Of a stretch of 32,624 nucleotides of DNA, positions 16,617 to 31,877 are shown in pieces. The notes beneath the pieces are model-generated. The model had not been told where the DNA came from. It was given only the letters and a program-made list of their open reading frames with translations, and did not search any database. Position 1 is the first letter of the stretch; each line of letters starts with the position of its first letter. The stretch comes from a virus: IMG/VR virus record IMGVR_UViG_3300037327_000103, positions 1 to 32,624 of that record, one strand, 5' to 3'. Both the position numbers and the translations under genes were made by a program.

Positions 16617-17231
16617 TCAGTGGGCCTTCTTTTCCCCGCGACTACGATGGCCGGCACGCACCCTGCGCCGGAACTCGGCGAGCATGGCCAGGTCGAACTC
16701 GATCTCCCGGCGGTCGATGTCCTCAGGGTCAAAGGCGCCTCCGACCCATTCCAGCAAGAACGCATGTTCGGGATGTTTCGGGTCGGCGATCGCATCGAGG
16801 AAGTTCATGAACCCGGGCAGACCGCCCACATCTTCGGGCGGTGCGCGGCGTCCGCCCTCGACGAACACCGGATAATCTTTGTCTGGATCACCGTCGCGGA
16901 CGTGCTCCACACGGATGCTGTGCCGCCAGTCGTCACCGAAATCGTAGACATAGGTGAATTGGTCGATTCCCCGATCCATCACCTGATTCAGCCGGGTTCC
17001 CTTGGCCTTGTAGACCCGGCCGGACGCGCTCTCCAATCCGGGGAGCGGGTCGCCATAGGCGCGGTCGCCCACGCGAAACTCGTAGAGATGCGCATGGTCC
17101 CACCGCATCACGGCCTGAAGGATGTCGTGCAATGTCGACAGGGTGATCGCAGCCGCCACGTCAACCCGCCGCCAGATACGCGGGGTGATGTCCTCGAGTT
17201 CGATCATCAGACGGGCGACGGGCTCCGACAT
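16617..17231 (-). CDS. plasmid pRiA4b ORF-3-like protein
   Basis: A 204-residue protein of the pRiA4b ORF-3/IS1096 TnpR-like family. It has the hallmark opening LMIELEDITPRIWRRVDV (about 8-25), LHDILQAVMRWDHAHLYEF (about 34-52) and YDFGDDWRH (about 96-104), with GGLPGF later. These proteins are found on plasmids and islands and lack a clear function. It is transcribed against the late operon, between terminase and the gpW-like gene, and fills the gap almost exactly. Start 17231 has GGAGG about 5 bp upstream; a further 19 codons to 17288 are possible. It looks like an independently acquired gene (moron). Confidence 0.85.
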   Translation of the reverse strand: MSEPVARLMIELEDITPRIWRRVDVAAAITLSTLHDILQAVMRWDHAHLYEFRVGDRAYGDPLPGLESASGRVYKAKGTRLNQVMDRGIDQFTYVYDFGDDWRHSIRVEHVRDGDPDKDYPVFVEGGRRAPPEDVGGLPGFMNFLDAIADPKHPEHAFLLEWVGGAFDPEDIDRREIEFDLAMLAEFRRRVRAGHRSRGEKKAH

Positions 17232-17278
17232 GGGTCCTCCGGGCGGCAGCTTTGTCCCAACCATAGAAGGCGCGCGTG

Positions 17279-17494
17279 ATGCCGACAATTACCGACCTGC
17301 GCAGCCGCCGCGACGCGCTCTCGGCGCAGCGCTCCTCCGGCGTGGCGCGGGTCAGCTATGACGGCAAGACCGTCGAGTATCGCAGCGTGGTCGAGATCGA
17401 CCGCGCCATCGAGGCGCTGGACCGCGAGATCGCCGCGGCCGAGGGCCGGCGGATCGTGCGGCAGCTGCGTGTGACGTCGACGAAGGGGCTGTGA
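17279..17494 (+). CDS. gpW-like head-tail joining protein
   Basis: 71 residues from ATG 17279 (AGAAGG at 17265-17270; a GTG at 17276 is also in frame). It has the size and helix-rich pattern of lambda gpW: TDLRSRRDALSAQRSSGVAR, a short hairpin YDGKTVEYRS, then a helix DRAIEALDREIAAAE and a basic end. gpW seals the head and helps make the tail-binding site. Position between the terminase and portal genes, 3 bp before the latter, is the lambda order. The antisense gene separates it from terminase. Confidence 0.75.
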   Translation: MPTITDLRSRRDALSAQRSSGVARVSYDGKTVEYRSVVEIDRAIEALDREIAAAEGRRIVRQLRVTSTKGL

Positions 17495-17497
17495 TCC

Positions 17498-19027
17498 ATG
17501 GGGCTGTTCGACCGGTTCCGCCGCCAGCCCGCCGGCGGCCCTGCGGGCATGCGTGCGCGCCTCGAAGGGGCGATGTCCCGGCGCCGGTTGCGCGGCTGGA
17601 ACCCGCCGCTGGAGAACGTCAACGCGCTCGTCGCCTCGGGCGGCCCAAAGCTGCTGGCGCGGGCGCGCGAACTGGTGGTCACCAACGGCTATGCCGCCAA
17701 TGCCTGCGAGGCCTTCGCCGCCAATCTCGTCGGCGACGGCATCAAGCCGTCTTCGCTGATCGACGACGCGGAGCTTCGGGACCAGGTCCAGCGGCTCTGG
17801 CTCGCCTGGACCGACGAGGCGGACGCGGACGGGCTGACGGACTTTTACGGCCTTCAGGCCATGGTCGCGCGAGAGATGTTCGTCGCGGGCGAGTGTTTCG
17901 TGCGGCTGCGCCCACGTCGCACCGAGGACGGTCTGCTCGTGCCGCTGCAACTGCAGCTCCTGCAATCCGAGATGCTGCCCTTCGAGAAGACCGAGACGGC
18001 AGCCAACGGCAACCGCATCCGCTGCGGGATCGAGTTCGACGCCATCGGCAGGCGGGTGGCCTATCACTTCCGCCGCAGCCATCCGGGCGACAGCACGGAC
18101 CGGCGCGTGGCGGTGCCGGAGACGGTGCGTGTGCCGGCGGCTGACGTCCTTCACGTCTATCGCCCGCTCGATGCCGGGCAGATCCGCGGCCTGCCGCATG
18201 TCGCGCCCGCCATGGTGCGGCTTTTCCTGCTGGACCAGTACGACGACGCCGAGCTCGACCGGAAGAAGACCGCGGCGATGTTCGCGGGCTTCATCACCAA
18301 GACGGCGCCCGAAGAGCCTATGATAGGCACGGAGGAGGCCGACCCCGACGGCGCGGCCATCGCCAGCCTCGAGCCGGGGACGCTGCAGGTCCTGCTGCCG
18401 GGCGAGGACGTGAAGTTCTCGTCACCGGCGGATGTGGGCAGCAGCTACGAGGCGTTCCAGTACCGCACGCTGCTCGGCGTCTCGGCCTCGCTGGGGCTGC
18501 CGTATCACCTGGTCACCGGTGACGTGCGCCAGGCCAACTATTCGAGCTTGAGGGCCGAGCTCGTCGAGTTCCGGCGTCGCGTGCAGCAGCTCCAGCACGG
18601 GGTGATCGCGCATCAGCTCTGCCGCCCGGTCTGGGCGCGCTGGCTGGAAACGGCGCGGCTGGCAGGCCGGCTGGATCTGCCCGACCCGGCCGTCGCCCAA
18701 ATGGTGCAGTGGATCCCGCCCCGCTGGGACTGGGTCGATCCGCTGAAGGACATCCAGGCGCAGGTGCTGGCGATGGAGGCGGGCATCACCTCGCGGCGCA
18801 AGGTGGTGGAGGCCACCGGCTACGATGTCGAGGAGGTCGACCGCGAGAACGCGACGGACACGGCGCGCGCCGAGGGGCTCGGCCTGCGCTACCGCACCAG
18901 CCCCGGCGAGACGCAGGGCGCGCGGGCGACGCCGGCAACGCGGCCCGATCCGGGCGATGGGTCGGCAGATGACAGCGGTGACGACATCGATGCGGCCGCG
19001 ACCGACCGCGCCACCAATCAGGAGTGA
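17498..19027 (+). CDS. portal protein, lambda family
   Basis: 509 residues, near the length of lambda gpB. It opens MGLFDRFRRQPAGGPAG, carries the family core NPPLENVNALVASGGPKLLA, ARELVVTNGYAANACEAFAA and AADVLHVYRPLDAGQIRGLP, and later VTGDVRQANYSSLRAELVEF. It forms the dodecameric portal through which DNA enters and leaves the capsid. The C-terminus is acidic and low-complexity (DDSGDDIDAAATDRATNQE). The position after gpW and before the protease is the expected lambda-type order. It starts 3 bp after the gpW stop. Confidence 0.93.
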   Translation: MGLFDRFRRQPAGGPAGMRARLEGAMSRRRLRGWNPPLENVNALVASGGPKLLARARELVVTNGYAANACEAFAANLVGDGIKPSSLIDDAELRDQVQRLWLAWTDEADADGLTDFYGLQAMVAREMFVAGECFVRLRPRRTEDGLLVPLQLQLLQSEMLPFEKTETAANGNRIRCGIEFDAIGRRVAYHFRRSHPGDSTDRRVAVPETVRVPAADVLHVYRPLDAGQIRGLPHVAPAMVRLFLLDQYDDAELDRKKTAAMFAGFITKTAPEEPMIGTEEADPDGAAIASLEPGTLQVLLPGEDVKFSSPADVGSSYEAFQYRTLLGVSASLGLPYHLVTGDVRQANYSSLRAELVEFRRRVQQLQHGVIAHQLCRPVWARWLETARLAGRLDLPDPAVAQMVQWIPPRWDWVDPLKDIQAQVLAMEAGITSRRKVVEATGYDVEEVDRENATDTARAEGLGLRYRTSPGETQGARATPATRPDPGDGSADDSGDDIDAAATDRATNQE

Positions 19028-19031
19028 CATC

Positions 19032-20024
19032 ATGAACAGCTGGTACACGATCCGCGCCCGCGACGGCGGCGCGGAGGTGCTGATCTATGACGAGATCGGC
19101 GCCTATGGCGTCTCGGCCAAGGGCTTCCTCGCCGAACTCGGCGCGCTGCCGGACGAGACCGCGATCGATCTGCGGCTGAACAGCCCCGGCGGCTCGGTCT
19201 TCGACGCGGTCGCGATCCACAACGCGCTGAGCCGCCACGCCGGCAGCGTCACCGTCTGGATCGACGGGATCGCGGCCTCGGCCGCCAGCTACATCGCGAT
19301 GGCGGGCGACGAGATCGTCATGCCCGAGAATGCCTTCCTGATGATCCACGATCCCTCCGGCCTCGTCATGGGCACGGCGGCGGACATGCGCGAGATGGCC
19401 GGGACGCTGGACAAGATCGCGGCCGGCATGCTGCGCGGCTACGCCGCCCGCTCGGGCAGGCCCGAGGAGGAGATCGCCGGGCTGATGGCCGCCGAGACCT
19501 GGCTCACAGCGGCCGAGGCGCTGGAGGCAGGTCTCGCCACGCGCCTGGCCGAGCCGGTGCGCATCGCCGCGCGCTTCGATATCGCCCGGTTCCGCAACGC
19601 GCCGCCAGCGCTGGTGGACGCGGTCGAGACCCCAGATCCGGAATACGCCAAGACGGAAACCGACATCGTTGACGACGCCAACGATGTCGCGTCGGTCCCC
19701 GATCCCGCGCCGCAGCCCGTGGCCGACGATCCGGACGGCCCCATGGCAGACGCCAGCACGGCTCCGAACGCCACCGCCATCCGCGCCGAGGCCATCGCCC
19801 ATGCCCGGGCCGTGGTCGATCTCTGCCGCCTCGCGGGTCAGCCGCAGATGGCCGGGCGCTTCCTCGAGGAGGACGCCAGCCTCGACGCGGTGCGCAGCAG
19901 CTTGCTGGACACGAAGGCCGAGGCCGCGCCGGAGATCACGCCCCATCACCCGCAACCCGGCCGCAGCGCCACGACCCGTCCCTGGGGCGACGTGATCGCC
20001 CGCACCTTCAAGCTCAAAGGATAG
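19032..20024 (+). CDS. ClpP-like prohead protease with scaffold-like tail
   Basis: 330 residues. The N-terminal 190 are a ClpP/S49 serine protease: LRLNSPGGSVFDA (about 48-60), GIAASAASY with the probable nucleophile Ser83, and MIHDPSG with His106. The rest (about 190-330) is acidic, Pro/Ala-rich and then helical, resembling the scaffold portion that follows the protease in lambda C/Nu3. It should process portal and scaffold during capsid maturation. ATG 19032 lies 4 bp after the portal stop. In-frame upstream codons to 18825 overlap the portal gene and are rejected. Confidence 0.9.
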   Translation: MNSWYTIRARDGGAEVLIYDEIGAYGVSAKGFLAELGALPDETAIDLRLNSPGGSVFDAVAIHNALSRHAGSVTVWIDGIAASAASYIAMAGDEIVMPENAFLMIHDPSGLVMGTAADMREMAGTLDKIAAGMLRGYAARSGRPEEEIAGLMAAETWLTAAEALEAGLATRLAEPVRIAARFDIARFRNAPPALVDAVETPDPEYAKTETDIVDDANDVASVPDPAPQPVADDPDGPMADASTAPNATAIRAEAIAHARAVVDLCRLAGQPQMAGRFLEEDASLDAVRSSLLDTKAEAAPEITPHHPQPGRSATTRPWGDVIARTFKLKG

Positions 20025-20030
20025 GCTCCC

Positions 20031-20396
20031 ATGACCACGCTTTCTGAGTCCACCCACCCCGGCGGCTTCCTCGTCTGGGAAGCCCATCGCGACTACACCC
20101 GAGAGACCGTCACCGTTGCGTCCGGCACGCTCTCACCCGGCACCGTGCTGGGTCAGATCACCGCCTCGGGCAAATACGCCGCCCACGACCCCGACGCCAC
20201 CGACGGGACAGAGACCGCCGTCGCCGTGCTCTGGGGCAAGGCGGACGCCAGCGGCGGCGATGCACCGGCCGTGGCGGTGGTCCGCGGCCCCGCCATCGTC
20301 AACCGGCATGATCTCGTCTTCGCGGGCACGCCCAGCGATCCCGAGGTCGCCGCCGCCCACGCCGCGCTCTTCGCCGCGGGCATCATCGTCCGCTGA
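20031..20396 (+). CDS. head decoration protein D
   Basis: 121 residues of the lambda gpD type: the N-terminal HPGGFLVWEAHRDYTRETVT, GTVLGQITASGKYAAH in the middle, and a C-terminal AAHAALFAAGIIVR. gpD trimers lock the expanded capsid and allow full-length packaging. It lies between the protease/scaffold and major capsid genes, the lambda order, with 25 bp before the capsid gene. Confidence 0.9.
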   Translation: MTTLSESTHPGGFLVWEAHRDYTRETVTVASGTLSPGTVLGQITASGKYAAHDPDATDGTETAVAVLWGKADASGGDAPAVAVVRGPAIVNRHDLVFAGTPSDPEVAAAHAALFAAGIIVR

Positions 20397-20421
20397 TCCG
20401 AAACCGACAGGAGGCATCAAC

Positions 20422-21435
20422 ATGGCCACCATGGACATCTTCGAAGGCGATGCCTTCACCATCGTCGAACTCACCCGCGCGCTCGAGAATATCCCCTACA
20501 AGCCCGCCATCCTGTCGGGCGCGGACCTCTTCGGCGCCCGCGGTGTGCGCAGCCGCACCGTGATGATCGAGAGCCGCGACGGCACGCTGTCGCTGATCCC
20601 GTTCTCCGAGCGTGGCTCTGCCTACGAGAGCCAGACGCCTGAACGCCGCGAGATGCGGGCGTTTGTTTGCCGGCAGTTCAAGAAGCAGGACGTGCTCTGG
20701 GCCTCGGAGATCCAGGCGATCCGCGACTTCGGCTCGGAAACCGCGGTGCAGCAGGTGCAGGCCGAGGTCGCCCGCAAGCTGGGCCGCCTGCGCAACGACG
20801 CCGAGGCCACGTTCGAGTTCCACCTCTTCAACGGCATCCAGGGCGTGGTGAAGGACCCCAGGGACGGCGCCACGGTGATCGATTACCACGCCGAGTTCGG
20901 CATCACCCCGGCCACGGAGGTCGACTTCGACCTCGACAACACCTCCCCCGCCTCGGGCGCGCTGCGCAAGCGTTGCCAGGCGCTGATCGAGAGCGTCGAG
21001 GATTCTCTGGGCGGGCTCGCCGCCGGCCAGGTGCAGCTCCGTGCCGAATGCGGCTCGGCCTTCTTCGCCGATCTGGTTGCCCACAAGGAGGTGCGCGAGA
21101 CCTATCTCAACACCGCGGCGGCCGCCGATCTGCGCGGCCGCGTGGGCGAGGAGGTCAGCTTCGGCGGGATCACCTTCCGCCGGTATCGCGGCGGGCTGGG
21201 CTTCGGCGTGCCCACCGACAAGGCGTATTTCTACCCCGAGGGCGTCGAAGGCCTGTTCGAGATCTACTACGCGCCTGCGGACACCTTCGAGACGGTCAAC
21301 ACCGTCGGCCTGCCGCTCTATGCCCGCATGATCCCGGACCGGGACCGCGACGAATGGGTGCGGCTCGAGATCGAGAGCAACCCGCTGCCGATCTGCACCC
21401 GACCGCAGGTCCTGCGCAGCGCGCGGCGGACCTGA
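20422..21435 (+). CDS. major capsid protein, lambda gpE family
   Basis: 337 residues, close to lambda gpE (341). Family landmarks are MDIFEGDAFTIVELTRALEN at the N-terminus, SRTVMIESRDGTLSLIPF, AFVCRQFKKQDVLWASEIQA, and the C-terminal EGLFEIYYAPADTFETVNT with GLPLYARMIPDRDRDEWV. It builds the icosahedral shell with the HK97 fold. AGGAGG precedes ATG 20422 by about 8 bp. Its stop shares a base with the next start (TGATG). Confidence 0.93.
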   Translation: MATMDIFEGDAFTIVELTRALENIPYKPAILSGADLFGARGVRSRTVMIESRDGTLSLIPFSERGSAYESQTPERREMRAFVCRQFKKQDVLWASEIQAIRDFGSETAVQQVQAEVARKLGRLRNDAEATFEFHLFNGIQGVVKDPRDGATVIDYHAEFGITPATEVDFDLDNTSPASGALRKRCQALIESVEDSLGGLAAGQVQLRAECGSAFFADLVAHKEVRETYLNTAAAADLRGRVGEEVSFGGITFRRYRGGLGFGVPTDKAYFYPEGVEGLFEIYYAPADTFETVNTVGLPLYARMIPDRDRDEWVRLEIESNPLPICTRPQVLRSARRT

Positions 21436-21746
21436 TGACGGCGGCTGCGATGGCGCTCGACGCGCTCTTCGCCGACGACAACATCGCCCGCGAGGCCGTC
21501 TACACGCCCGAGGGTGGAACGCCTGTCCTCGTCCGGGTGGTGACCCGCCGGGCGGACGAGACCACGGGCTTCGGCGACGCGCGCCTCTGGTCGGAGACCA
21601 CGCGCGTGGATCTGCGCGTAGCCGAGGTTCCGACCCCGCGCCCCGGCGACCGCATCGAGATCGACGGCGAGGCCTTCCTGATCCAGGGCGAGCCGGTCCG
21701 CGACCGCGAGCGGCTCGTCTGGACCGTGGATCTGAGGCCGACATGA
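21435..21746 (+). CDS. head completion/attachment protein (FII-like)
   Basis: 103 residues, strand-rich, with LALFADDN-type opening (ALDALFADDNIAREAVYT), VLVRVVTRRADETTGF, and the C-terminal GDRIEIDGEAFLIQGEPVRD. This matches the small head-tail attachment proteins of the lambda FII type that complete the connector below gpW. It overlaps the capsid gene by one base and the following gene by four, so it belongs firmly to the head-tail joining unit. Confidence 0.72.
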   Translation: MTAAAMALDALFADDNIAREAVYTPEGGTPVLVRVVTRRADETTGFGDARLWSETTRVDLRVAEVPTPRPGDRIEIDGEAFLIQGEPVRDRERLVWTVDLRPT

Positions 21747-22375
21747 AGCTGAAACTCGACGTCACGCCCGACCTCGCTTCGTTGATGGCCGCCGAGATCA
21801 AGGCGGGCGAGCGCGCGGTGACCACGGCAATGCGTGAGGCCGGCGGGCAGCTCAAGACCGACTGGCGGCGCCAGATCACCGGCGCGGGGCTCGGGCAGCG
21901 GCTCGCCAAGAGCATCCGCGCCGAGACCTGGCCCAAGGGGACAACCAGCATCGGCGCAGCCTCGCTGGTCTGGTCGAAGGCGCCCGCCATCGTCGGCGCG
22001 CACGACACCGGCCCGCTGATCCGCTCGAAGGCCGGGTTCTGGCTCGCGATCCCGACGCCCGCCGCCGGCCGCGGATTGCGCGGCGGAAAGATCACCCCCG
22101 ACGAATGGGAACGCCGCCGCGGTCTGCGCCTGCGGTTCGTCTATCGCCGCCGCGGCCCGAGCCTGCTCGTCGCGGATCGGGCCCGGATCAACACGCGGGG
22201 CACCGCGGTGGCCTCACGCGCCAAGACGGGGCGCAACCAGGTCACCGCGCCGATCTTCTTGCTGGTCCCGCAGGTCAAGCTGCCGAAGCGGCTCGATCTC
22301 GACCGGGACGCCGAGCGCGCGCGTGACAGCGTGCCCGGGTTGATCGTGGCGAACTGGGTGGAGGGGCGGCTTTGA
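21743..22375 (+). CDS. tail completion protein, gp10-like (DUF6441-like)
   Basis: 210 residues, basic. It opens MKLKLDVTPDLASLMAAEIK and continues with a helix ending in GGQLKTDWRRQITGAGLGQR, the usual start of minor tail completion proteins, then FWLAIPTPAAGRGLRGGKIT and APIFLLVPQVKLPKRLDLDR. I recall this as DUF6441 in rhodobacterial phages (from memory). It normally stands immediately before the tail terminator gene; here the mer cassette separates the two. Its ATG overlaps the previous stop (ATGA), and its TGA at 22373-22375 is the last base of the uninterrupted head-joining block. Confidence 0.75.
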   Translation: MKLKLDVTPDLASLMAAEIKAGERAVTTAMREAGGQLKTDWRRQITGAGLGQRLAKSIRAETWPKGTTSIGAASLVWSKAPAIVGAHDTGPLIRSKAGFWLAIPTPAAGRGLRGGKITPDEWERRRGLRLRFVYRRRGPSLLVADRARINTRGTAVASRAKTGRNQVTAPIFLLVPQVKLPKRLDLDRDAERARDSVPGLIVANWVEGRL

Positions 22376-22425
22376 TCATGTCGGATCGCCAAACGCCGCA
22401 GAAGTTTCGAGGCTGTTGGATCGGC

Positions 22426-23850
22426 TCAACCAGCACAGCAAGACAGCTTCGCGACATCCATGTCGAAGGTCTGAGCGGCGAGCTTCAGGCCCTCGACTGT
22501 GGTCAGATAGGGAAAGATCGTCTCGCCGAGCGCCTTCGTCGTCATGCCGAACTTCAGCGCCATGGCCAGCGTCTGAACGCTGTCGGCCCCTTCCGGCGCC
22601 ATGATCACGCCGCCCAGCAGGCGGTCCGTCTGCGCATCTGCGACCAGCTTGATCCGCCCCCGCGTGTCGCGGGCGGCGAGCGCGCGGGGCACGTTGTCGA
22701 GGTCAAGCACGCTTGTCTTCACGTCATGGCCGGCGTCGCGCGCGTCCGCCTCGGTCAGGCCAACGCCCGCGACCTGCGGATCGGTGAATACCACCCACGG
22801 CATCGCCGCGTTGTCGTAGCGCTCGGCGCCGTCCAGCACGGCGTTGCGGGCCGCGAGCTTTGCGCCGTAGGCCGCCATGTAGACGAACTGGTCGCGGTCC
22901 GCGACGTCGCCTGCCGCATAGATGCCGGGGCGTGTCGTGGCCATGTCGTCGCCGACCCTGATCGTGCCGCGCGCGTCGGTCTCGACGCCCATTTCGGCCA
23001 GGCCCAGCCCCTCGGTGTTGGGCGCGCGTCCCGTGGTCAGGACGAGATGGTCGGCCGTCAGTTCGCGGACGGTCCCGTTCCGCGTGACCGACAGGAGCGC
23101 GCCGTCATCCACCTCTCGTGCAGCCTCGTAGCGAACGCCGTCGAGGATCGTCAGACCCTCTTCCCGCAAGACCTCCGTGAGCGCCTCGGACACCTCCGGC
23201 TCGGTGCGCGGCAGCAGGCGCGACCGGCAGACGATGGTCACGCGGACGCCCATCCGCGCCATCATCTGCGCCAGTTCCACGCCGATATAGCCGCCGCCGA
23301 GGAAGATCAGGCTCTCGGGCAGCCGCTCCAGTTCCATCAGCGAGGTGCTGTCGAGCGTCGGCACATCCGCAATGCCGGGGATGTCGGGCACTGCGGGCCG
23401 CCCGCCGGTTGCGACGATCACCCTTGGCGCGGCGATCCTGCGCCCGCCGACCTCGACGCCGCCATCCACGAGCCGCGCCGGCCCCTCGTCGACATAGGTG
23501 ACACCGTCGTACTCGGGCAGCAGCTCGGCATATTTCTTCTGTCGCAGGCTTGCGACAAGGTCGTCCTTTGCGCCGATCAGGGCCGCCCAGTCGGTCACCT
23601 GCGAGTCGCCCGACAGTCCGGGGAAACGGCGCGCGGCCTTCGCGCCATGCATGGCCTCGGCCGCGCGGATCATCGTCTTGGAGGGCACGCAGCCCACGTT
23701 CACGCAGGTCCCGCCGATCGTGCCGTGGCCGATCAGCGCGACGCGCTTGCCGCCCTCGACGGCCGTGATCGCGGCCGAGAAGCCGGCCGAGCCCGCACCG
23801 ATGACGGCGAGGTCATAGTCACCCTTGGGCGTGCAGCAATCGTCTTTCAT
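22426..23850 (-). CDS. merA: mercuric reductase
   Basis: 474 residues from the start MKDDCCTPKGDYD at 23850; an ATG at 23862 (overlapping merF) is also possible. It has the FAD-binding GAGSAGFSAAI, the redox disulfide GTCVNVGCVPSK, the NAD(P)H-binding GGGYIGVELAQ, the second FAD motif GIYAAGDVADRDQFVYMAAY, and the MerA-specific C-terminal vicinal cysteines SCCAG. It reduces Hg(II) to volatile Hg(0) in the cytoplasm using NADPH. The N-terminal HMA (NmerA) domain is absent. Last gene of the mer operon, running toward the phage tail completion gene, with 50 bp (22376-22425) between stops. Confidence 0.95.
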   Translation of the reverse strand: MKDDCCTPKGDYDLAVIGAGSAGFSAAITAVEGGKRVALIGHGTIGGTCVNVGCVPSKTMIRAAEAMHGAKAARRFPGLSGDSQVTDWAALIGAKDDLVASLRQKKYAELLPEYDGVTYVDEGPARLVDGGVEVGGRRIAAPRVIVATGGRPAVPDIPGIADVPTLDSTSLMELERLPESLIFLGGGYIGVELAQMMARMGVRVTIVCRSRLLPRTEPEVSEALTEVLREEGLTILDGVRYEAAREVDDGALLSVTRNGTVRELTADHLVLTTGRAPNTEGLGLAEMGVETDARGTIRVGDDMATTRPGIYAAGDVADRDQFVYMAAYGAKLAARNAVLDGAERYDNAAMPWVVFTDPQVAGVGLTEADARDAGHDVKTSVLDLDNVPRALAARDTRGRIKLVADAQTDRLLGGVIMAPEGADSVQTLAMALKFGMTTKALGETIFPYLTTVEGLKLAAQTFDMDVAKLSCCAG

Positions 23851-23854
23851 CAAG

Positions 23855-24088
23855 TCATCCATCCGTTCGAGTGGTCTGGCGCCGCTGCCGCCGCCAGACG
23901 GCATACACCGTCAGCACGACGAAAAAGGCGAGTGCGGGCAGCAGCACATAGTCGAGCCAGCCCAGCCAGGCCGACAGTCCCACGGCGCCGAGAAGCACGA
24001 CCAGGATCGGCGTGAAGCAGCAGAGCGCCACGATGACGGTGCCGACGATCCCTGTCGCGATCAGCTTGCGGTCGGTCTGCTCGGTCAT
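23855..24088 (-). CDS. merF: mercury transport protein MerF
   Basis: 77 residues, two transmembrane helices. The first contains the vicinal pair in VALCCFTPILVVLLGAVGL (Cys23-Cys24), and WLGWLDYVLLPALAFFVVLT forms the second. It carries Hg(II) across the inner membrane. The C-terminus ends RRQRRQTTRTDG and lacks the second cysteine pair seen in the classical MerF, while a CC pair occurs at the start of the adjoining MerA. ATG 24088 is 4 bp after the merP stop; longer starts to 24154 overlap merP and are unlikely. Confidence 0.88.
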   Translation of the reverse strand: MTEQTDRKLIATGIVGTVIVALCCFTPILVVLLGAVGLSAWLGWLDYVLLPALAFFVVLTVYAVWRRQRRQTTRTDG

Positions 24089-24092
24089 CCCG

Positions 24093-24398
24093 TCAGCCCG
24101 CGACCCGCGCCGGGTAGCCCGCATTGGCCGAGGCCGCCGCGATGGCGTCGGCACTGGTCGCGGCGGAGTCGTAGATCACCGTGGCGGTGCGTGCCTCGAA
24201 GTCGATCTCGACAGTGCGCACGCCCGCGACGCCCTCCATCGCACGCTTCACAGTGATCGGGCAGAGCGCGCAGGTCATGTTGTCGACCGCGAACGTGATA
24301 GTCTGCTCCGCGGCGACGGACTGCGCGACCGCAGAAGTGGCGGTCATCGGGGCGACGGCTGTCAGGCCGAACAGTGCAAGGGCAAGGAACTTCTTCAT
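24093..24398 (-). CDS. merP: periplasmic mercury-binding protein MerP
   Basis: 101 residues. A signal peptide (MKKFLALALFGLTAVAP...VAQ, cleavage near residue 26) leads to one HMA domain with NMTCALCP, where Cys43 and Cys46 bind Hg(II) in the periplasm for hand-over to MerT/MerF. KRAMEGVAGVRTVEIDFEAR and the closing AASANAGYPARV are normal for MerP. It lies 18 bp after merT and 4 bp before merF, within one minus-strand operon. Confidence 0.93.
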   Translation of the reverse strand: MKKFLALALFGLTAVAPMTATSAVAQSVAAEQTITFAVDNMTCALCPITVKRAMEGVAGVRTVEIDFEARTATVIYDSAATSADAIAAASANAGYPARVAG

Positions 24399-24416
24399 GA
24401 GGGTGTCCTTCCGGGA

Positions 24417-24806
24417 TCAGTAGAGAAGCGGGGCCCACCAGTCGATGGTGAGTGCTGCGACAACGAGGATCAGCGAGGCCCAGAGTGCGGTCTTGGTGAT
24501 GCGCGCCGATGCTGGCCTTGCGCAGTAGGAACCGGGTTCGCAGACGGTCGGCTTGCGGAAATAGACCTGCCGGAATCCCGCCCCGACGAAGCCGAGCGCG
24601 ATCACGGCGAAGATCGGCTTGTAAGGCTCCAGCGCCGTCAGGTTGCCGATCCAGGCGCCCGAGATGCCGAGGGTCAAAAGCACCAGCGGCCCGATGCAGC
24701 AGGCCGAGGCGAGAAAGGCGCCCAGCACACCGCCTGCCGCAAGCCAGCCCTTTCGGGCGGGGCGATCCGCGCCCGTGCTGTCCGTTCGGTCGTCCGTCAG
24801 CGCCAT
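24417..24806 (-). CDS. merT: mercuric transport protein MerT
   Basis: 129 residues with three hydrophobic segments. The vicinal pair ASACCIGPLVLLTLGISGAW (Cys36-Cys37) lies in the first, and a second pair Cys89/Cys95 (VCEPGSYCA) lies in the loop, as expected for MerT. It moves Hg(II) from MerP into the cytoplasm. I place the start at 24806 (MALTDDRTDS), because the extension to 24884 would run through the operator and promoter. It is the first gene of merTPFA. Confidence 0.93.
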   Translation of the reverse strand: MALTDDRTDSTGADRPARKGWLAAGGVLGAFLASACCIGPLVLLTLGISGAWIGNLTALEPYKPIFAVIALGFVGAGFRQVYFRKPTVCEPGSYCARPASARITKTALWASLILVVAALTIDWWAPLLY

Positions 24807-24837
24807 GTCGCGCACCTCTCGTCTGTGATTTAGGAGA

Positions 24838-24868
24838 GGTGTAGGGTCTGTAGCAACTACAGGCTCAA
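24838..24868 (-). promoter_or_regulatory. mer promoter-operator, MerR type
   Basis: Read on the minus strand, a -35 TTGAGC (24863-24868) and a -10 TACACC (24838-24843) are separated by exactly 19 bp, the over-long spacer typical of MerR-controlled promoters. Inside the spacer lies a perfect dyad CTGTAG (24848-24853), CAA, CTACAG (24857-24862). It sits between the divergent merT and merR starts. This predicts repression without Hg(II) and activation by DNA distortion when MerR binds Hg(II). Confidence 0.8.
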
Positions 24869-24882
24869 GAGGAAACTTGCCC

Positions 24883-25308
24883 ATGACCGATCACGAGCGC
24901 GAGAGCGGTTTCACACGCGGCGACCTGGCCCGGGCGACCGGCTGCAACATCGAGACGATCCGCTATTACGAGAAGACCGGCCTTTTGCCCGACCCGCCCC
25001 GGACCGACGCCGGCTACCGCATCTATTCCACCGCGCACGCCACACGTCTGCGCTTCATCCTGCGCGCCCGCGAACTCGGGTTCTCGATGGAGGACATCCG
25101 CGGACTGATGGGGCTCGAAGACGGCGCCGCGCCGACCTGCGCAGAGGTCAAGGAGCGGACGGAGCGCCACCTTGCCGATGTCCGCGCGAGGATCGCGGAT
25201 CTCCGGCGTATCGAAACCGTCCTCGCTGCAACCGCATCCAGGTGTTCGGGCGCCGAAGTCCCCGACTGTCCGGTGCTCGACGCGATTTCCAACCCGGCCG
25301 ACCCATGA
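24883..25308 (+). CDS. merR: mercury-responsive regulator MerR
   Basis: 141 residues. The N-terminal winged helix-turn-helix FTRGDLARATGCNIETIRYY and the dimerisation helix of the MerR family are clear. The Hg(II)-binding cysteines are Cys86, Cys121 and Cys130, spaced 35 and 9 residues apart, which equals Cys82/117/126 of the classical MerR. ATG 24883 follows AAGAGGA by about 10 bp; a TTG at 24877 is possible. It is divergent from merTPFA. Its TGA overlaps the ATG of the phage tail terminator gene (ATGA, 25305-25308), so mer and phage translation are joined. Confidence 0.95.
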   Translation: MTDHERESGFTRGDLARATGCNIETIRYYEKTGLLPDPPRTDAGYRIYSTAHATRLRFILRARELGFSMEDIRGLMGLEDGAAPTCAEVKERTERHLADVRARIADLRRIETVLAATASRCSGAEVPDCPVLDAISNPADP

Positions 25309-25721
25309 CACCTCGCGAAACCATCCTCGCCGCGCTGAACGCGCGGCTCTCGGCGCTTCCCGCCACCGCTTTGCGCAGCGAGGTGCTGCCCGAGCGCGTC
25401 CCGGCCGATGGATTACTGATCCTGCGCGACGGCGAGCCGGGGGAGCCGGAGGTGACGTTTTCGCCGCTGCGTTATCACTACCAGCACCGCGCCGAGATCG
25501 AGGCGGTGGTTCAGGGCGCCGACCGTGATGCCGCCTTCGACACGCTGACCGCCAGCATTGGCACGGCGCTCGCCGCCGACCGCACGCTGAGCGGGCTCTG
25601 TGACTGGGTAGAGGCAGAAGCGCCGCGCCCGGTCGACTTGGCCGTAGAGGGCGCGGCGAGCCTGAAGGCGGCGACCATCGCGGTGGTGCTGCACTACGCG
25701 ACGGACGACCCGCTGAGCTGA
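25305..25721 (+). CDS. tail terminator protein
   Basis: 138 residues of the small tail-terminator/minor tail type: MTPRETILAALNARLSALPA at the N-terminus, ILRDGEPGEPEVTFSPLRYH, DTLTASIGTALAADRTLSGL and AATIAVVLHYATD at the end. Such proteins cap the tail tube and set the connection to the head. The gene would be expected directly after the gp10-like gene; the mer cassette stands between. It has no ribosome site of its own beyond the 3' end of merR, so it may depend on coupling to merR translation. Confidence 0.75.
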   Translation: MTPRETILAALNARLSALPATALRSEVLPERVPADGLLILRDGEPGEPEVTFSPLRYHYQHRAEIEAVVQGADRDAAFDTLTASIGTALAADRTLSGLCDWVEAEAPRPVDLAVEGAASLKAATIAVVLHYATDDPLS

Positions 25722-25809: not shown

Positions 25810-25825
25810 GCGACAGGAGAGCATC

Positions 25826-26767
25826 ATGGCACGATCCCTTGGGGCCCGGGCGCGGCTCGCGCTCGGCTTCGAGACCACCTACGGCACGCCGCCGGCCAGC
25901 GGCTTCATCCGAATGCCCTTCGCGCCGGGGCTGACCGTCGCCGCCGAACAGCCGCTGCTCGACTCCGAGCTGCTGGGCTACGGCCGCGATCCGCTGGCGC
26001 CGGTCAAGGACGCGATCACCGCCGACGGCGACGTGGTGGTCCCGATCGACGCGGAGGCCTGGGGCCACTGGCTCAAGGCCGCCTTCGGCGTGCCCACGAC
26101 CAGCGGCACCGGGCCCTACACCCACGAGTTCCAGTCCGGCGCCTGGGACCTGCCGAGCTTCGCGCTGGAAAAGGGCCTGCCGGAGGTACCGCACTTCGCC
26201 ATGTATCCCGGCTGCCGGGTCAACCAGTTGCAATGGTCGATGGAGCGCTCGGGCCTCGTCACGGCGACCGTCGGCGTGATCGCGCAGGGCGAGGACAAGA
26301 GCGCTGCGAGCCAGGCCGGCACCCTGACCGAGCCCGCGCTCAGGCGCTTCGGCAGCTTCAACGGCAGCGTCCAGCGCGATGGGGCGGCGCTCGGCAACCT
26401 GGTCTCGGCCGAGATCACCTATGCCAACAACCTCGACCGGGTGGAGACGCTCCGCGCCGACGGCAAGATCGACGGCGTGGAGCCCGGCATCGCCGCGCTC
26501 ACCGGCAACGTGGTGGTCCGCTTCGCCGACGAGACGCTGCTGCAGCAGGCGATCGACGGGGCGGCTTGCGAGCTGGTTTTCGGCTACGCGCTGCCCTCGG
26601 GCGAGAGCTTCACGCTGACTGCGCATGCCGTCTACCTGCCGCGCCCGCGGATCGGGATCGACGGGCCGCAGGGCATCCAGGCGACATTCGACTGGCAGGC
26701 GGCGCGTGACCCCGGCACCGGCCGCATGGCCACCGCAACCCTCATCAACGACGTGGACCTGTACTGA
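25826..26767 (+). CDS. major tail tube protein
   Basis: 313 residues. ARSLGARARLALGFETTYGT at the start, VVVPIDAEAWGHWLKAAFG, and alternating strands through to RMATATLINDVDLY fit the phage tail tube proteins that pair with DUF3168-type terminators. It polymerises into the tail tube around the tape measure. CAGGAGAG precedes ATG 25826 by about 6 bp. It follows the intrinsic terminator, so a nearby promoter or antitermination is needed for its high expression. Its stop overlaps the next ATG by one base. Confidence 0.82.
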   Translation: MARSLGARARLALGFETTYGTPPASGFIRMPFAPGLTVAAEQPLLDSELLGYGRDPLAPVKDAITADGDVVVPIDAEAWGHWLKAAFGVPTTSGTGPYTHEFQSGAWDLPSFALEKGLPEVPHFAMYPGCRVNQLQWSMERSGLVTATVGVIAQGEDKSAASQAGTLTEPALRRFGSFNGSVQRDGAALGNLVSAEITYANNLDRVETLRADGKIDGVEPGIAALTGNVVVRFADETLLQQAIDGAACELVFGYALPSGESFTLTAHAVYLPRPRIGIDGPQGIQATFDWQAARDPGTGRMATATLINDVDLY

Positions 26768-27264
26768 TGCTCCGACTCGACATGACCCGCAAACCCGCCT
26801 GGCACGACATGCCCGGCGGCGTGCGCCTGAAACTCCTGCCGATCACCACCGCCCTGATGGCCGAGGCGCGCCGCGATCCCGACGTGGTCGAGGCGCTGCA
26901 GAGCGTGCCGCCCGAGGCCATTGAGGCGGAGGCAAACGCGGCCATTTCGCGCGCGACCGACGAGGCGGTGGCGATCCCTTTCGCGGTCGCGCTGGCCCGG
27001 CTGGCGATCGTGGAATGGGACGGCGTCGGCGACGCGAGGGGCAATCCGGTGGAGCCCGGGACCGAGACGATCCCGGCGCTGATGGACATCTGGCCGATTT
27101 TCGAGGCGTTCCAGACCCGCTACGTCCAGAAAGGACTGCTGCTGGAGCAGGAAAAAAACGCCTCTGCGCCCTCGCAGCCTGGGTCTGGGGCGGGGGCGCG
27201 GAGTACTGCGCAGGGTGCCAAGGGCCGTGCCCGGACTGCCCGCAAACGCAAGAGCGCCCGCTGA
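26767..27264 (+). CDS. tail assembly chaperone (gpG-like), zero-frame product
   Basis: 165 residues with a folded helical region (MLRLDMTRKPAWHDMPGGVR, then DEAVAIPFAVALARLAIVEW and FEAFQTRYVQKGLLLEQEKN to residue 131). A very basic, low-complexity tail follows (KGRARTARKRKSAR). The gene lies between tail tube and tape measure, where lambda-type phages encode G/GT chaperones that coat the tape measure. A slippery heptamer at codons 129-131 lets some ribosomes make a longer product (separate entry). The basic tail after the slip site is probably the default, non-shifted end. Confidence 0.75.
   Translation: MLRLDMTRKPAWHDMPGGVRLKLLPITTALMAEARRDPDVVEALQSVPPEAIEAEANAAISRATDEAVAIPFAVALARLAIVEWDGVGDARGNPVEPGTETIPALMDIWPIFEAFQTRYVQKGLLLEQEKNASAPSQPGSGAGARSTAQGAKGRARTARKRKSAR
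27153..27159 (+). other. -1 programmed frameshift heptamer A_AAA_AAC
   Basis: In the chaperone reading frame the codons are GAA AAA AAC. Bases 27153-27159 form A AAA AAC, one of the canonical X_XXY_YYZ -1 slip sites, in the right phase. The -1 frame is open from here to 27506. The position between tail tube and tape measure genes is where lambda and most siphoviruses use such a shift. Confidence 0.75.
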
Positions 27265-27506
27265 CGCTGGAGGGTCGGCAGATGCGGGATCTGGTGCAGG
27301 CGGCCGGCGGCCAGCTGCGGCTGGCGCCGATGGGCGGCGTCATCGGCTTCGACATGACCGCGCTCCTGACGATGGCCCGCGTCCGCGGCGTTCCGCTGGC
27401 CGCCGCCGCCGAGCTTCTCCCGCATGTCGAGGCGGTGGTGGTCGAGACCCTGCAGAAACGAAACGACGAGTCGCGCGGGGACGGCGGCGCCATGGGGGCT
27501 GACTGA
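27159..27506 (+). CDS. frameshift extension of the tail chaperone (gpT-like part)
   Basis: After the -1 slip the frame encodes 115 more residues, for a 246-residue fusion with the first 131 of the chaperone. The extension starts RLCALAAWVWGGGAEYCAGC, continues with a Cys cluster GPCPDCPQ, and has RDLVQAAGGQLRLAPMGGVI and a helical AAELLPHVEAVVVETLQKR. Similar Cys-rich proteins occupy this place in rhodobacterial phages. No good ribosome site precedes the first internal ATG (27282), which supports expression by frameshifting. Its stop overlaps the tape measure ATG. Confidence 0.68.
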   Translation, partial: RLCALAAWVWGGGAEYCAGCQGPCPDCPQTQERPLTLEGRQMRDLVQAAGGQLRLAPMGGVIGFDMTALLTMARVRGVPLAAAAELLPHVEAVVVETLQKRNDESRGDGGAMGAD

Positions 27507-29983
27507 TGGCCGAGAAACGTGTGAGCGTGCGCCTGTCGGCGACGGGCGGGCGGCAGGTCAAGGATGCGCTGCGCGGTGTGGGCGAGGCCGGGCAGCAGGG
27601 CTTCCGGCGCCTCTCGCGCGAGATGGAGGCGGCCAACCGCCGGCTCGCCCGCTTCGCGCGGCAGGCCACGCGGATCGCCCGGGTCGTCGGCGCGGCAGCT
27701 ACGGCGGCGGGCGCGGCGCTGATCCGCTCGGGGCTCCAGACCGTCGACGCGCAGGCCAAGCTCGCGCAGTCGCTGGCCACCACCACGGCGAGCGTGCAGG
27801 TGCTCGCGCGTGCGGCGGACCTGTCGGGCAATACCTTCCGCGAACTCGAGGCCGGCTCTGCGCGCCTGACCCGGCGCCTTTCGCTCTTCGCCGCCGATGG
27901 CAGCGGCCCTGCGGCCGACGCGATCCGGCGGCTGGGGCTGAATGCGACGGAGCTGCTCGCGCTGCCGCTCGACCAGCGCATCGCGCGGGTGACCGAGGCG
28001 ATCCGCAGCAATGCCGCGGCCTCCGAGCAGGCGGCGCTCTTCTCGCAGCTCTTCGGCGATCGCGCCTTCGTGGCCTTCCAGCGGCTCGAACCCGCGCAAC
28101 TGCGCCAGGCGAACGACGAGCTGCGCCGCTTCGGCGTGCTGGTCAGCGACGCCGACGCCGACCGGATCGAGGAGACCAACGACGCGATCTCGCGGCTGGG
28201 TCTGCTCTGGCGGGGCCTGTCGAACCAGCTGGCCGTCGCCGCCGCGCCGGCGCTGCAGAGCGCCGCCGAAGGGCTGGCCCGGCTGGGCGAGGTCGGCGGG
28301 CCGATCCAGCGGGTCTTCACCGGCCTTTCGGACGCGTTCGTCCTGTTGATCGACAATTTCGCGCGGGTGGCCAGCACCGCGGCGGCCTTCGCGGGGTTCA
28401 TCGCCGGGCGCATGGTTGTCCGTCTCGCGTTGGCCGCGACGACGGTCCGCGGTCTCGCCACGGCGCTGGTCGTCCTGCGCGGGGCGCTGATCCGCACCGG
28501 CATCGGTGCGCTGATCGTCGGCGCGGGCGAGCTGATCTACCAGTTCACGCGGCTGGTGGCAGCGACGGGCGGCATCGGCGCGGCGCTCGATCTGCTGAAG
28601 GACGTGGCCGCGGAGGCCTGGGACCGGATCGCGCTGCGCGCCGGCGCCGCCTGGGCGCGGGTGGAGGCCGGCTGGGCCGCAGCGCAGGCCAGCATCTTCG
28701 AGGGTCTGCAGGGCGCGACGGAGGCTGTGGTCGGCTGGGGCAACAGCACCGTCGCGACCTTCTCCGGCGCGTTCGACGCGGTGAAGGCGACTTGGGGGGC
28801 GCTGCCGGAGGCCATCGGGGACTTCGCCTTCCAGGCCGCGAATGCCCTGATCGACGGCGTCGAGTCGATGATCAACGGTGTGGTGGCGCGCATCAACCGC
28901 TTCATCACCCGGCTGAACGCGGCGCTGTCCAATCTCCCCGACTGGGCAACCGGCGAGGGCGGCCTCTCCATCGGCACGCTGGACCCGGTCGAGCTGGGCG
29001 GGGTCGAGAACCCGTTCGCCGGGGCGGCCACGGCGGTCGGCGATGCCGCGGGAGAGGCCTTCCGTGCCGCCATGGGCCGCACCTATGTCGAGGCGCCGGA
29101 TCTCTTCGGCGGGATGGCCGCGGATGCGCGCGGGCGCGCCGCGGGCTATGCCGAGGCCGCCGGCATGCTGTCTCAGGCCGCCGCGCGCCCGATGACCGCG
29201 TGGCAAGCACTGAAGGACGCCGTGGCGGGCGCGGGCTCGGACGGCGCGGCGGCGCTCGAGGCGGCCACGGACTCGGCCGACCGGTTCGAGGAGGCGCTCG
29301 GCGCGGCTGGACAGGCGGCCACCGAGGCCGGCGCCGCGGCCGGCGCGGCCGCCTCCGCCGCCGCGCCCAGCACCGAGCGGGCCGTCACCGGCTGGCAGGC
29401 CGTCACCGTGGCCCTGTCGGATTACGCGACGAAGGCGCGTCAGATCGGCGGCGATATCGGCCAGAGCCTCGTGGGCGCCTTCCGGTCGGCGGAGAGCGCG
29501 GTCGGCGAGTTCGTGAAGACCGGCAAGCTGAAGGTCCGCGACCTCGTCACATCGCTCATCGCCGATCTCGCGCAGCTCGCCGCGCGGCGCTTCATCCTGG
29601 GGCCGATCGCCAATGCGCTCGGCGGTGCGCTCGGGGGCGCCGGCGGGCTTTTCGCCAATGTCCTCCATGCCGGCGGTGTGGTCGGTGCACCGGGACCCGG
29701 ACGCACGGTTCCGGCTGCGGCCTTCGCGGACGCGCCACGCATGCATTCTGGCGGCACGCTCGGGCTTCGCCATGATGAGGTACCGGCGATCCTGCAACGC
29801 GGCGAGCGGGTGCTCTCGCGCCGGGAGGTGCGCGCCGAAGACGCCCAGGGCCGCGACCGCGAGCCCGCCCCGACCGTCAATGTCACCATCCAGACCCGCG
29901 ACGCCGAGAGCTTCCGACAGTCCCGCACACAGGTCGCCGCCGACATCTCGCGCGCCGTGGCCATGGGTCGAAGGGGAATGTGA
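27506..29983 (+). CDS. tail tape measure protein
   Basis: 825 residues. The long Ala-rich, helical and partly hydrophobic middle contains segments such as MVVRLALAATTVRGLATALV (about 305-324). The C-terminal part is of the lambda tail-tape-measure type: RFILGPIANALGGALGGAGG and the motif SGGTLGLRHDEVPAILQRGE, RVLSRREV. It sets tail length and is ejected at infection; by the usual 1.5 angstrom per residue rule the tail would be of medium length. ATG 27506 overlaps the previous stop (TGATG). The strong GC bias creates long false open frames on the other strand here. Confidence 0.93.
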   Translation: MAEKRVSVRLSATGGRQVKDALRGVGEAGQQGFRRLSREMEAANRRLARFARQATRIARVVGAAATAAGAALIRSGLQTVDAQAKLAQSLATTTASVQVLARAADLSGNTFRELEAGSARLTRRLSLFAADGSGPAADAIRRLGLNATELLALPLDQRIARVTEAIRSNAAASEQAALFSQLFGDRAFVAFQRLEPAQLRQANDELRRFGVLVSDADADRIEETNDAISRLGLLWRGLSNQLAVAAAPALQSAAEGLARLGEVGGPIQRVFTGLSDAFVLLIDNFARVASTAAAFAGFIAGRMVVRLALAATTVRGLATALVVLRGALIRTGIGALIVGAGELIYQFTRLVAATGGIGAALDLLKDVAAEAWDRIALRAGAAWARVEAGWAAAQASIFEGLQGATEAVVGWGNSTVATFSGAFDAVKATWGALPEAIGDFAFQAANALIDGVESMINGVVARINRFITRLNAALSNLPDWATGEGGLSIGTLDPVELGGVENPFAGAATAVGDAAGEAFRAAMGRTYVEAPDLFGGMAADARGRAAGYAEAAGMLSQAAARPMTAWQALKDAVAGAGSDGAAALEAATDSADRFEEALGAAGQAATEAGAAAGAAASAAAPSTERAVTGWQAVTVALSDYATKARQIGGDIGQSLVGAFRSAESAVGEFVKTGKLKVRDLVTSLIADLAQLAARRFILGPIANALGGALGGAGGLFANVLHAGGVVGAPGPGRTVPAAAFADAPRMHSGGTLGLRHDEVPAILQRGERVLSRREVRAEDAQGRDREPAPTVNVTIQTRDAESFRQSRTQVAADISRAVAMGRRGM

Positions 29984-29986
29984 GCA

Positions 29987-30613
29987 ATGGCGTTCCATGA
30001 GGTGCGTTTCCCGGACGACATCAGCCGCGGCGCGCGCGGCGGGCCGGAGCGGCGCACGCAGATCGTCGAACTCGCCTCGGGCGAGGAGGAGCGCAACGCC
30101 AGCTGGGCCAATTCCCGCCGCCGCTACGACGTGGCCTACGGCATACGGCGCGCGGACGATCTGGCGGCCGTGGTCGCCTTCTTCGAGGCGCGAAACGGCC
30201 GGCTCCATGGCTTCCGCTTCAAGGACTGGGGCGATTACAAGTCGGCCCCGCCGTCCAAGGCGATCGCGCCCACCGACCAGGAGATCGGCACGGGCAATGG
30301 CGGCCTCACCGAGTTTGCACTCCTGAAACGCTACAGCTCCGGCGCGCAAAGCTGGATCCGCGCCATCGCCAAGCCTGTGGCAGGCAGCCTGCGCGTCGCG
30401 CTCGGCGGCGTCGAGCAGATGTCGGGCTGGACGATCGACACGACCAGCGGCGTCGTCACCTTCGCCACCGCGCCGGCGGCGGGCGTCGCGATCACCGCAG
30501 GCTTCGCCTTCGACGTGCCTGTCCGTTTTGACACCGACGCGCTCGACGTGACCCTCGACCTCGAGCGGCTCGGCTCGATTACCTCAATTCCGCTTCTGGA
30601 GATCCGGCGATGA
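29987..30613 (+). CDS. DUF2460 distal tail-type protein
   Basis: 208 residues of the DUF2460/TIGR02217 family: AFHEVRFPDDISRGARGGPE at the start, GFRFKDWGDYKS in the middle, then TSGVVTFATAPAAGVAITAG and FDVPVRFDTDALDV. The Rhodobacter gene transfer agent has a homologue (gp12) at its tail tip, where it forms part of the distal tail ring. It begins 3 bp after the tape measure stop. In related phages the DUF2163 gene follows immediately, whereas here eight small or lysis genes come between. Confidence 0.92.
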   Translation: MAFHEVRFPDDISRGARGGPERRTQIVELASGEEERNASWANSRRRYDVAYGIRRADDLAAVVAFFEARNGRLHGFRFKDWGDYKSAPPSKAIAPTDQEIGTGNGGLTEFALLKRYSSGAQSWIRAIAKPVAGSLRVALGGVEQMSGWTIDTTSGVVTFATAPAAGVAITAGFAFDVPVRFDTDALDVTLDLERLGSITSIPLLEIRR

Positions 30614-30741
30614 ACGATTCCGGCGTTCGCGGGGCTTACGCGGCGGTCCGAAGGACGGCGCCACGGTCCCCGCTCACCGTCGCAGCCGTGCTGCGCGACC
30701 CCATGCAAACGTCAAGACCTCGGGGCATCCGCCATGAATGA
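30610..30741 (+). CDS. possible small basic protein, 43 aa
   Basis: ATG 30610 overlaps the DUF2460 stop (ATGA), and the frame stays open for 43 residues, MNDSGVRGAYAAVRRTAPRS onward, ending 4 bp into the next codon set after the holin-like start. The product is Arg-rich without a membrane segment. The overlap style matches the rest of the operon, but nothing in the protein is recognisable. It may be a spacer ORF or a small lysis-cassette leader. Confidence 0.35.
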   Translation: MNDSGVRGAYAAVRRTAPRSPLTVAAVLRDPMQTSRPRGIRHE

Positions 30742-31081
30742 CGGATCCGGCTTCATCGCAGCAGTTCTCAGGGAACTTGCAGCATCTACCGCCGTGATCC
30801 TCGCCGCCTGGGGCGCGCTCGGCGGCGCCACGAACGCGCTGACCACGAAGATGCGCCTGCGCGATGCGTTGCGCCACATCCTGCTCGGCGGGCTGATCGC
30901 GGCCGGCATGGGGAGCCTGTCGATGGCCGTCATCGCGGCGTGGCTGGGGCTGCGCCCCGACGCGATCCCTGCGGGCGGGCCCGCCGGCTCGGCCGCCTAT
31001 CTCGTCGGCGTTTTCGGCCCGGCCTTCATCGAAGTCGTCCACGCCCGGCTGCGCGCCGCGAAGGGGCGCAAGGATGACTGA
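30734..31081 (+). CDS. holin-like membrane protein
   Basis: 115 residues with three hydrophobic stretches: GFIAAVLRELAASTAVILAA (about 6-25), HILLGGLIAAGMGSLSMAVI (about 48-67), and GSAAYLVGVFGPAFIEVVHA (about 85-104). The charged C-terminus RLRAAKGRKDD is typical of holins. It is the first clear gene of the lysis cassette, four genes upstream of the spanins and before the GH24 lysozyme. It should form inner-membrane holes that release the endolysin. The assignment rests on topology and place. Confidence 0.65.
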   Translation: MNDGSGFIAAVLRELAASTAVILAAWGALGGATNALTTKMRLRDALRHILLGGLIAAGMGSLSMAVIAAWLGLRPDAIPAGGPAGSAAYLVGVFGPAFIEVVHARLRAAKGRKDD

Positions 31082-31205: not shown

Positions 31206-31209
31206 TCCC

Positions 31210-31872: not shown

Positions 31873-31877
31873 TCCCC

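Follow-up and report, generated by a model that had tools for sequence, protein, structure and literature searches.

A mercury-resistance cassette in a variable cargo slot between two virion genes of temperate phages of Rhodobacterales and neighboring orders

The window that we analyzed (virus record IMGVR_UViG_3300037327_000103, 32,624 bp, whose positions serve as coordinates below) carries a mercury-resistance (mer) cassette among the morphogenesis genes of a phage. The cassette occupies 2,929 bp (22376..25304, with genes on both strands) and fills the interval between the stop codon of a DUF6441 virion gene, which ends at 22375, and the ATG of the tail terminator gene at 25305. An earlier note on this DNA had described a complete mer cassette between tail genes at this place, and profile searches agreed with it on both counts. 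Pfam and NCBIfam models matched all five mer genes, the left wall gene (21743..22375, plus strand) matched PF20039 (1.7e-50) and phrog_6367 (1.8e-73), and the right wall gene (25305..25721, plus strand) matched phrog_4204 (4e-41). The homolog of the DUF6441 gene in Rhodobacter phage RcSwan is annotated as 'minor tail protein'.

Within the cassette, merA, merF, merP, and merT lie on the minus strand and merR lies on the plus strand. The mercuric reductase gene merA (22426..23904) scored 528 bits with TIGR02053 (cut-off, 454); it has two candidate starts, 23904 or an ATG 14 codons further in, and Pfam detected no N-terminal HMA domain in MerA. The mercury transporter gene merF (23855..24091; frame open to 24154, ATG at 24091) scored 111 with NF033565, for which the cut-off is 50. 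merP (24093..24398) encodes a periplasmic Hg-binding protein with the HMA domain PF00403 and reached 78 bits with its best-matching model, TIGR02052, below the cut-off of 92.6. The mercuric transporter gene merT (24417..24806) matched PF02411 above the Pfam cut-off (6e-30) and scored 107 with its NCBIfam model, below 150; its start at 24806 was picked by reading, and relatives align almost from that position. The regulator gene merR (24883..25308), divergent from merTPFA, matched PF09278 and PF13411, and its best NCBIfam model was TIGR02051 at 128 bits (cut-off, 151), with the CueR model close behind at 121.

The key cysteines, which had been called intact, were found in all five translations. 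MerA has the motif GTCVNVGC and a C-terminal CC, MerT has CC and C-x5-C, MerP has CxxC, MerF has CC, and MerR has four cysteines, the last two 8 residues apart, a spacing that we take to be 9 residues in Tn501 MerR. The functional roles of the cysteines in these five proteins are assumed from general knowledge. The cassette thus resembles the narrow-spectrum mer operons of Gram-negative bacteria, with a MerA that carries a redox-active cysteine pair and a C-terminal CC, and with transporters that carry cysteine pairs.

A mer operator-promoter was read in the sequence at 24838..24868 on the minus strand, consisting of TTGAGC, a 19-bp spacer with the dyad CTGTAG-TTG-CTACAG, and TACACC. A generic sigma-70 promoter scan that allowed spacers of 16-18 bp gave no match, as would be anticipated with a spacer of 19 bp. 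The operator-promoter is almost invariant among mer loci located between the same two wall genes (hereafter slot mer loci), and it is recognizable in most of the listed mer loci elsewhere. Ratios of nonsynonymous to synonymous substitution rates (dN/dS) between the window and four mer prophages were 0.08-0.24 for the five mer genes (merF was not found in one prophage), including 0.15-0.18 for merA against the four relatives. These values point to purifying selection on the mer genes, with the operator kept, so that a lysogen should express merTPFA on contact with Hg(II) inside a silent late operon, as expected from mer biology. In mer operons, MerT, MerP, and MerF serve the uptake of Hg(II), and MerA its reduction to Hg(0). 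Here, the entry of Hg(II) into the lysogen would lead MerR to activate merTPFA from the divergent operator-promoter, the three transport proteins would bring Hg(II) in, and MerA would convert it to Hg(0). The merTPFA genes are oriented opposite to the phage late operon and could therefore work in a silent prophage, and merR has the orientation of the operon and ends in the tail terminator start codon.

Occupancy of the interval between DUF6441 and tail terminator genes was analyzed in a first sample obtained by scanning viral contigs with the DUF6441 protein (best 80 of 528 relatives) and adding mer loci. In this sample, 82 loci had two measurable wall genes (tail terminator >70% identical). 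All 82 were filled, with 335 to 3,057 bp between the walls, and their 73 distinct inserts formed 45 nucleotide clusters. We then added merA loci from species genomes and places from 121 drawn genomes of the host order, 22 of which had the tail terminator. This brought the number of distinct units to 118. The slot was filled with more than 300 bp in 112 of them (4,062 bp at most), which fall into 61 cargo clusters; five were empty, and one had 219 bp. Where the tail terminator was at least 75% identical to that of the window, 107 of 107 distinct units were filled (at least 335 bp); of the 11 with a less similar tail terminator, five were filled, five were empty (53-72% identical), and one was the 219-bp unit. 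The host-order draw gave 40 places, of which 37 were retrieved and 29 were measurable (23 filled, five empty, and one of 219 bp); three extra places from genome G011 lie outside this draw. Although mer units make up 25 of the 112 filled slots, this proportion is no frequency because mer loci were deliberately over-sampled.

Most other junctions of the late operon were closed. More than 300 bp was found at the head-tail attachment/DUF6441 junction in 4 of 112 units, at tail terminator/tube in 10 of 78, at tube/chaperone in 4 of 68, at chaperone/tape measure in 4 of 46, at tape measure/phrog_2913 gene in 1 of 42, at portal/protease in 0 of 25, at protease/decoration in 0 of 34, at decoration/capsid in 1 of 47, and at terminase/portal in 5 of 42 (usual length, 242 bp). 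The exception among these controls was the capsid/head-tail attachment junction, which exceeded 300 bp in 12 of 49 units, always with 892-895 bp (e.g., L069, L071, and L244). The extra DNA at the tail terminator/tube junction measured 336-1760 bp, and this junction is perhaps a rarer second slot. In loci L007, L030, and L055, a second tail-terminator-like copy lies between the tail terminator and tube genes.

The empty state consists of two adjoining genes. DUF6441 and tail terminator genes overlap by 4 bp in the annotations of RcSwan and Synechococcus phage Sc-Yong805-1 and in genome locus L227, and they are 4-7 bp apart in the four other empty genome loci. In the window, the stop codon TGA of merR overlaps the tail terminator ATG as ATGA, and the same overlap was found by coordinates in 19 of 22 slot mer loci; in most mer cassettes, merR thus replaces DUF6441 as the partner of the start overlap. 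The site has a fixed position, 61 clusters of cargo exchanged independently of the flanks, and mostly closed junctions around it, as prophage cargo hotspots do, and, like a moron, it places between conserved virion genes extra genes that are absent from relatives. It is a general, repeatedly refilled cargo slot, which the earlier note had missed, and mer is therefore one cargo among dozens rather than an isolated insertion.

To survey the other cargo, 50 proteins representing 44 of the 45 first-sample clusters were searched against Pfam, and two more proteins were scanned separately; some of the open reading frames (ORFs) were picked mechanically and are probably on the wrong strand. L023 carries ChrA and ChrB (chromate transport), and L026 carries an ArsP-type permease and a MerR-family regulator near the tail terminator. 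Further domains were GNAT, glyoxalase, EamA, SulP, HipA, and an RNase-A-type toxin, together with nuclease-type and other domains (PLD, pPIWI-associated nuclease, HNH, T5orf172, and NYN). No Pfam family was found at E 0.01 for 27 of the 50 proteins, some of which are probably wrong-frame ORFs. PADLOC models matched few of the 52 proteins (10 models with one member each), which does not establish a general defense role of the slot. All 112 inserts had a G+C content below that of their own walls, with a median deficit of 0.138 for the 87 other inserts versus 0.031 for the 25 mer inserts.

Since mer genes are classically transposon-borne, and those of the phage-plasmid SJ1 lie among Tn21 and insertion sequence (IS) genes, a transposon could have brought mer into the phage and lost its ends since. 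We consider this origin very improbable. The earlier note had seen no transposase, resolvase, or terminal inverted repeats, and this was confirmed: no transposase or resolvase was recognized among the window ORFs, and none of 15 inverted-repeat pairs (at least 14 nt) had arms at both cassette edges, unlike Tn21/Tn501-type transposons, which have tnpA/tnpR and terminal inverted repeats. The cassette ends at the same gene borders as 60 other cargo clusters, and no transposase Pfam family matched any of the 52 proteins from 44 of the 45 first-sample clusters. The alignment to mer-less relatives that had been proposed as a check was also made. L029 and L024 match the window at 88-90% in blocks directly flanking the cassette on both sides and in the same order, and the possibility that the two flanks are separate elements was rejected on this basis. 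Flanks from different elements and transposon ends had been named in advance as findings that would speak against the proposal; both were looked for, and neither occurred.

Comparisons between loci indicate how the cargo may change. L114 (Rhodobacter kunshanensis) and L115 (a Frigidibacter metagenome-assembled genome) share an identical run of 2,467 bp that starts inside the DUF6441 gene, 306 bp before its stop, and ends 34 bp past the cassette, and their phage genes outside the run have 60-92% identity per 100-bp window. An identical cassette is carried by the IMG/VR contig L005. L091 and L244 have a 513-bp cargo that is 99-100% identical, adjacent flanks at 74-92%, and again 87-98% further left. 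In nine pairs of loci the flanks were at least 92% identical and the cargo was unrelated, and in 33 pairs the cargo was more than 8 points more alike than the flanks. We interpret this pattern as homologous replacement, with crossovers in or near virion genes. The conserved flanking virion genes would serve as sites of recombination through which slot cargo is swapped, so that an exchange of this kind, rather than transposition, probably brought mer in. A candidate driver of the exchange is the Sak4-like single-stranded DNA-annealing recombinase encoded in the window (1035..1883, plus strand; phrog_124, 1.5e-32). Between the window and L101, synonymous divergence (dS) decreased from 0.58 for merA to 0.10 for merR, with 0.45-0.50 for the wall genes; since dS is lower toward merR, the part of the cassette that holds merR and merT was apparently replaced later than merA in this pair. 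A mer variant of 2,125 bp, present in L005, L006, L114, and L115, has merA and merR as its only mer genes; merT, merP, and merF were not detected in it.

A MerA tree had 10 changes between slot and non-slot labels, three of them forced by starred branches. These changes are a rough sign only that MerA moved more than once between the slot and other places, because the tail terminator of L014, which is labeled as slot, is ~8 kb away from its mer genes and slots may go unseen on short contigs. The viral contigs L013 and L014 carry a more distant mer cluster, and a search for the wall genes on L013 found none.

These observations could also be combined into a bolder proposal, which we regard as tentative, possible rather than probable. 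The slot would be a permanently filled, clade-wide cassette port that splits an ancestral overlapping gene pair, and every viable recombinant would have to bring cargo that also provides the sequence context in which translation of the tail terminator gene starts. The port would then be swappable and never emptied, with the virion genes as recombination arms, and dozens of cassettes (mercury and chromium resistance, an ArsP-type permease, and toxin-like and nuclease cargo) would be shared across alphaproteobacterial orders, as in a cassette exchange system that is carried by phages and driven by recombination.

The distribution of the cassette among hosts was analyzed by a merA scan of species genomes, from which 80 loci were kept out of 255 relatives found. 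mer lies in the slot in 22 of these 80 loci, 14 of them in named isolates; the other 58 had no slot walls within the DNA examined, where short contigs may hide some. Among loci L103, L107, L108, L110, L112, L153, and L156, the pairs that were compared had identities of 97.9-99.9% over 14-21 kb. The prophages of Amaricoccus and Histidinibacterium have a block of 40,978 bp in common at 99.77%, and the Jiella prophage matches each of the two over 34-37 kb at 98.4-98.8%. Jiella and Roseibium belong to Hyphomicrobiales and Histidinibacterium to Rhodobacterales, and the occurrence of almost identical mer prophages across genera and orders agrees with phage-borne transfer. The window itself matches contigs of Roseisalinus antarcticus at 99-100% over 889-8906, 17763-21500, and 21968-27914.

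Prophage and mer might instead move mainly within plasmids or islands and not in virions. Four of six compared prophages are on contigs of 65-125 kb, and a metal-resistance region in common with Amaricoccus comes after the Histidinibacterium copy, as such movement would predict. However, the identity spans the phage block, the outer flanks are mostly unalignable between hosts, and the contigs that carry the Amaricoccus and Tropicimonas copies measure 1.58 Mb and 0.62 Mb. We therefore judge movement mainly in plasmids or islands to be unlikely.

The phage that carries the cassette belongs to the temperate lambda-like siphophages and is found in Rhodobacterales and some neighboring orders. Profile scans of the window identified replication genes, the Sak4-like recombinase, methyltransferases, and terminase, portal, protease, decoration, tail, and lysis genes. 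Gene transfer agents of the RcGTA type are without replication genes of their own; in contrast, the window phage encodes primase, helicase, and Sak4 genes. A large serine recombinase is present on five of six related mer-prophage contigs, the sixth being covered in part, and a search for the tyrosine integrase domain PF00589 in six host genomes of mer prophages gave no match inside the phage regions examined. The earlier note had described the virion genes on both sides of mer as intact, and the late genes that we scanned have open, full-length reading frames as far as the record goes. This is one of the reasons for which we hold it quite unlikely that the prophage is grounded or defective, with mer kept as host DNA in a dead phage. 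The DUF6441 and tail terminator genes have dN/dS values of 0.06-0.32, and near-identical copies occur in unrelated hosts; on the other side, most of the host assemblies are drafts, and 12 host genomes have 1 to 6 tail terminator matches each. Loss of the tail-tip genes was considered for the window and rejected since the record simply ends within the next tail gene, 24 residues past its start and after the lysozyme gene.

Very probably, then, the mer cassette is lysogenic-conversion cargo in a hypervariable DUF6441/tail terminator slot, with cargo replaced by homologous recombination. Several observations weigh against this interpretation. MerR, MerP, and MerT fall under the NCBIfam equivalog cut-offs, and the CueR score of MerR almost equals its MerR score. 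mer was found in none of 26 measurable slots of the newly drawn genomes (G002 and G009 left out) and is thus a rare cargo. Composition hardly marks mer as foreign, as mer inserts are only slightly poorer in G+C than their walls. Because L115 is a metagenome-assembled genome, the L114/L115 tract may be an assembly chimera, although L005 carries the identical cassette. The window record is without both phage ends, and for this reason its own integrase was not seen. In the comparison with Roseisalinus, which covered the window up to 27914, matches in the remainder of the first 20 kb were lower (best, 96% at ~8907-17762); owing to these and to the many related prophage pieces in that genome, presence of the whole window phage there is not established. 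If the cassette is conversion cargo as we propose, the lysogen would be resistant to mercury and the phage would form particles and transfer the trait, and mercury resistance may well be spread by this virus among bacteria in the environment.

Mercury resistance in the environment is usually traced to plasmids and transposons. Here, a temperate phage carries it as cargo that can be exchanged, and nearly identical copies of this phage occur in two orders and several genera of hosts. The slot offers a ready-made place to search for new resistance, toxin, and defense genes, and it makes testable how phages add cargo to a tightly packed assembly operon without breaking it. Lambdoid morons are autonomous genes between conserved virion genes, often with their own promoter and a different G+C content. 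Unlike these, the slot is one junction filled in all sampled close relatives, takes up to ~4 kb and 61 clusters, and can hold a whole regulated detoxification operon. Accessory and defense hotspots of P2- and P4-like phages have a fixed position, conserved flanks, and many cargos, including nucleases and toxins; the slot differs in belonging to another phage group, splitting genes that overlap in some relatives, and holding metal resistance. Other mer operons of Alphaproteobacteria have the same divergent merR layout and operator type, with MerA 70-86% identical.

The closest precedent is the report of metal-resistance genes in 10 Paracoccus phages and prophages (PMC6536676). Its arsB prophages PD6/PD20, found on different continents and almost identical, carry that gene in reverse orientation within the structural genes, and a cluster of serine recombinases is described as well; the part of that paper available to us mentions no mer operon, cargo slot, alternative cargo, or cassette exchange. 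Soil phages along a chromium gradient were called reservoirs of metal-resistance genes (PMC8240259) on the basis of community-level gene counts, and the accessible part of that study names no operon position or slot. In the mobilome of a contaminated site, as far as the accessible text of the report goes, metal-resistance genes were located on non-viral contigs only (PMC11128244). The P1-like phage-plasmid SJ1 (OQ595196) shares mer genes including merA on a phage record, but these are of the Tn21 type with merC, merD, and merE among IS and transposon genes and not in a morphogenesis operon. Searches of an open-licence library, by title and abstract opening, brought up no report of mer in this position, of the slot and its range of cargo, or of the exchange tracts. 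Phage-borne metal resistance as such had already been described in Paracoccus.

The remaining late genes of the window are on the plus strand. Terminase, portal, protease, and decoration genes, identified by PHROGs, are followed by capsid and head-tail attachment genes (together 14571..21746); the latter two were assigned from position and the RcSwan gene order, and the last begins at ~21435. Downstream of the slot, profile scans identified the tail tube, chaperone, tape measure, phrog_2913 (presumably DUF2460-like), and lysozyme genes (25826..32624). In Histidinibacterium lentulum, a region to the right of the lysis genes (L195:5223-16660) encodes a DUF411 protein, two heavy-metal-type P-type ATPases, cytochrome c, DUF302, and a MerR-family regulator. 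It is ~99.8% identical to Amaricoccus and is possibly a second metal-resistance cargo region at the right end of the prophage. A 622-kb Tropicimonas contig (G011:C20) has three tail terminator copies and four serine recombinases, with 70, 60, and 28 kb between successive ones, which suggests tandem related prophages. Positions 10071-11405 of the window encode an apparent fusion of a ParB-like nuclease domain and a DNA methyltransferase.

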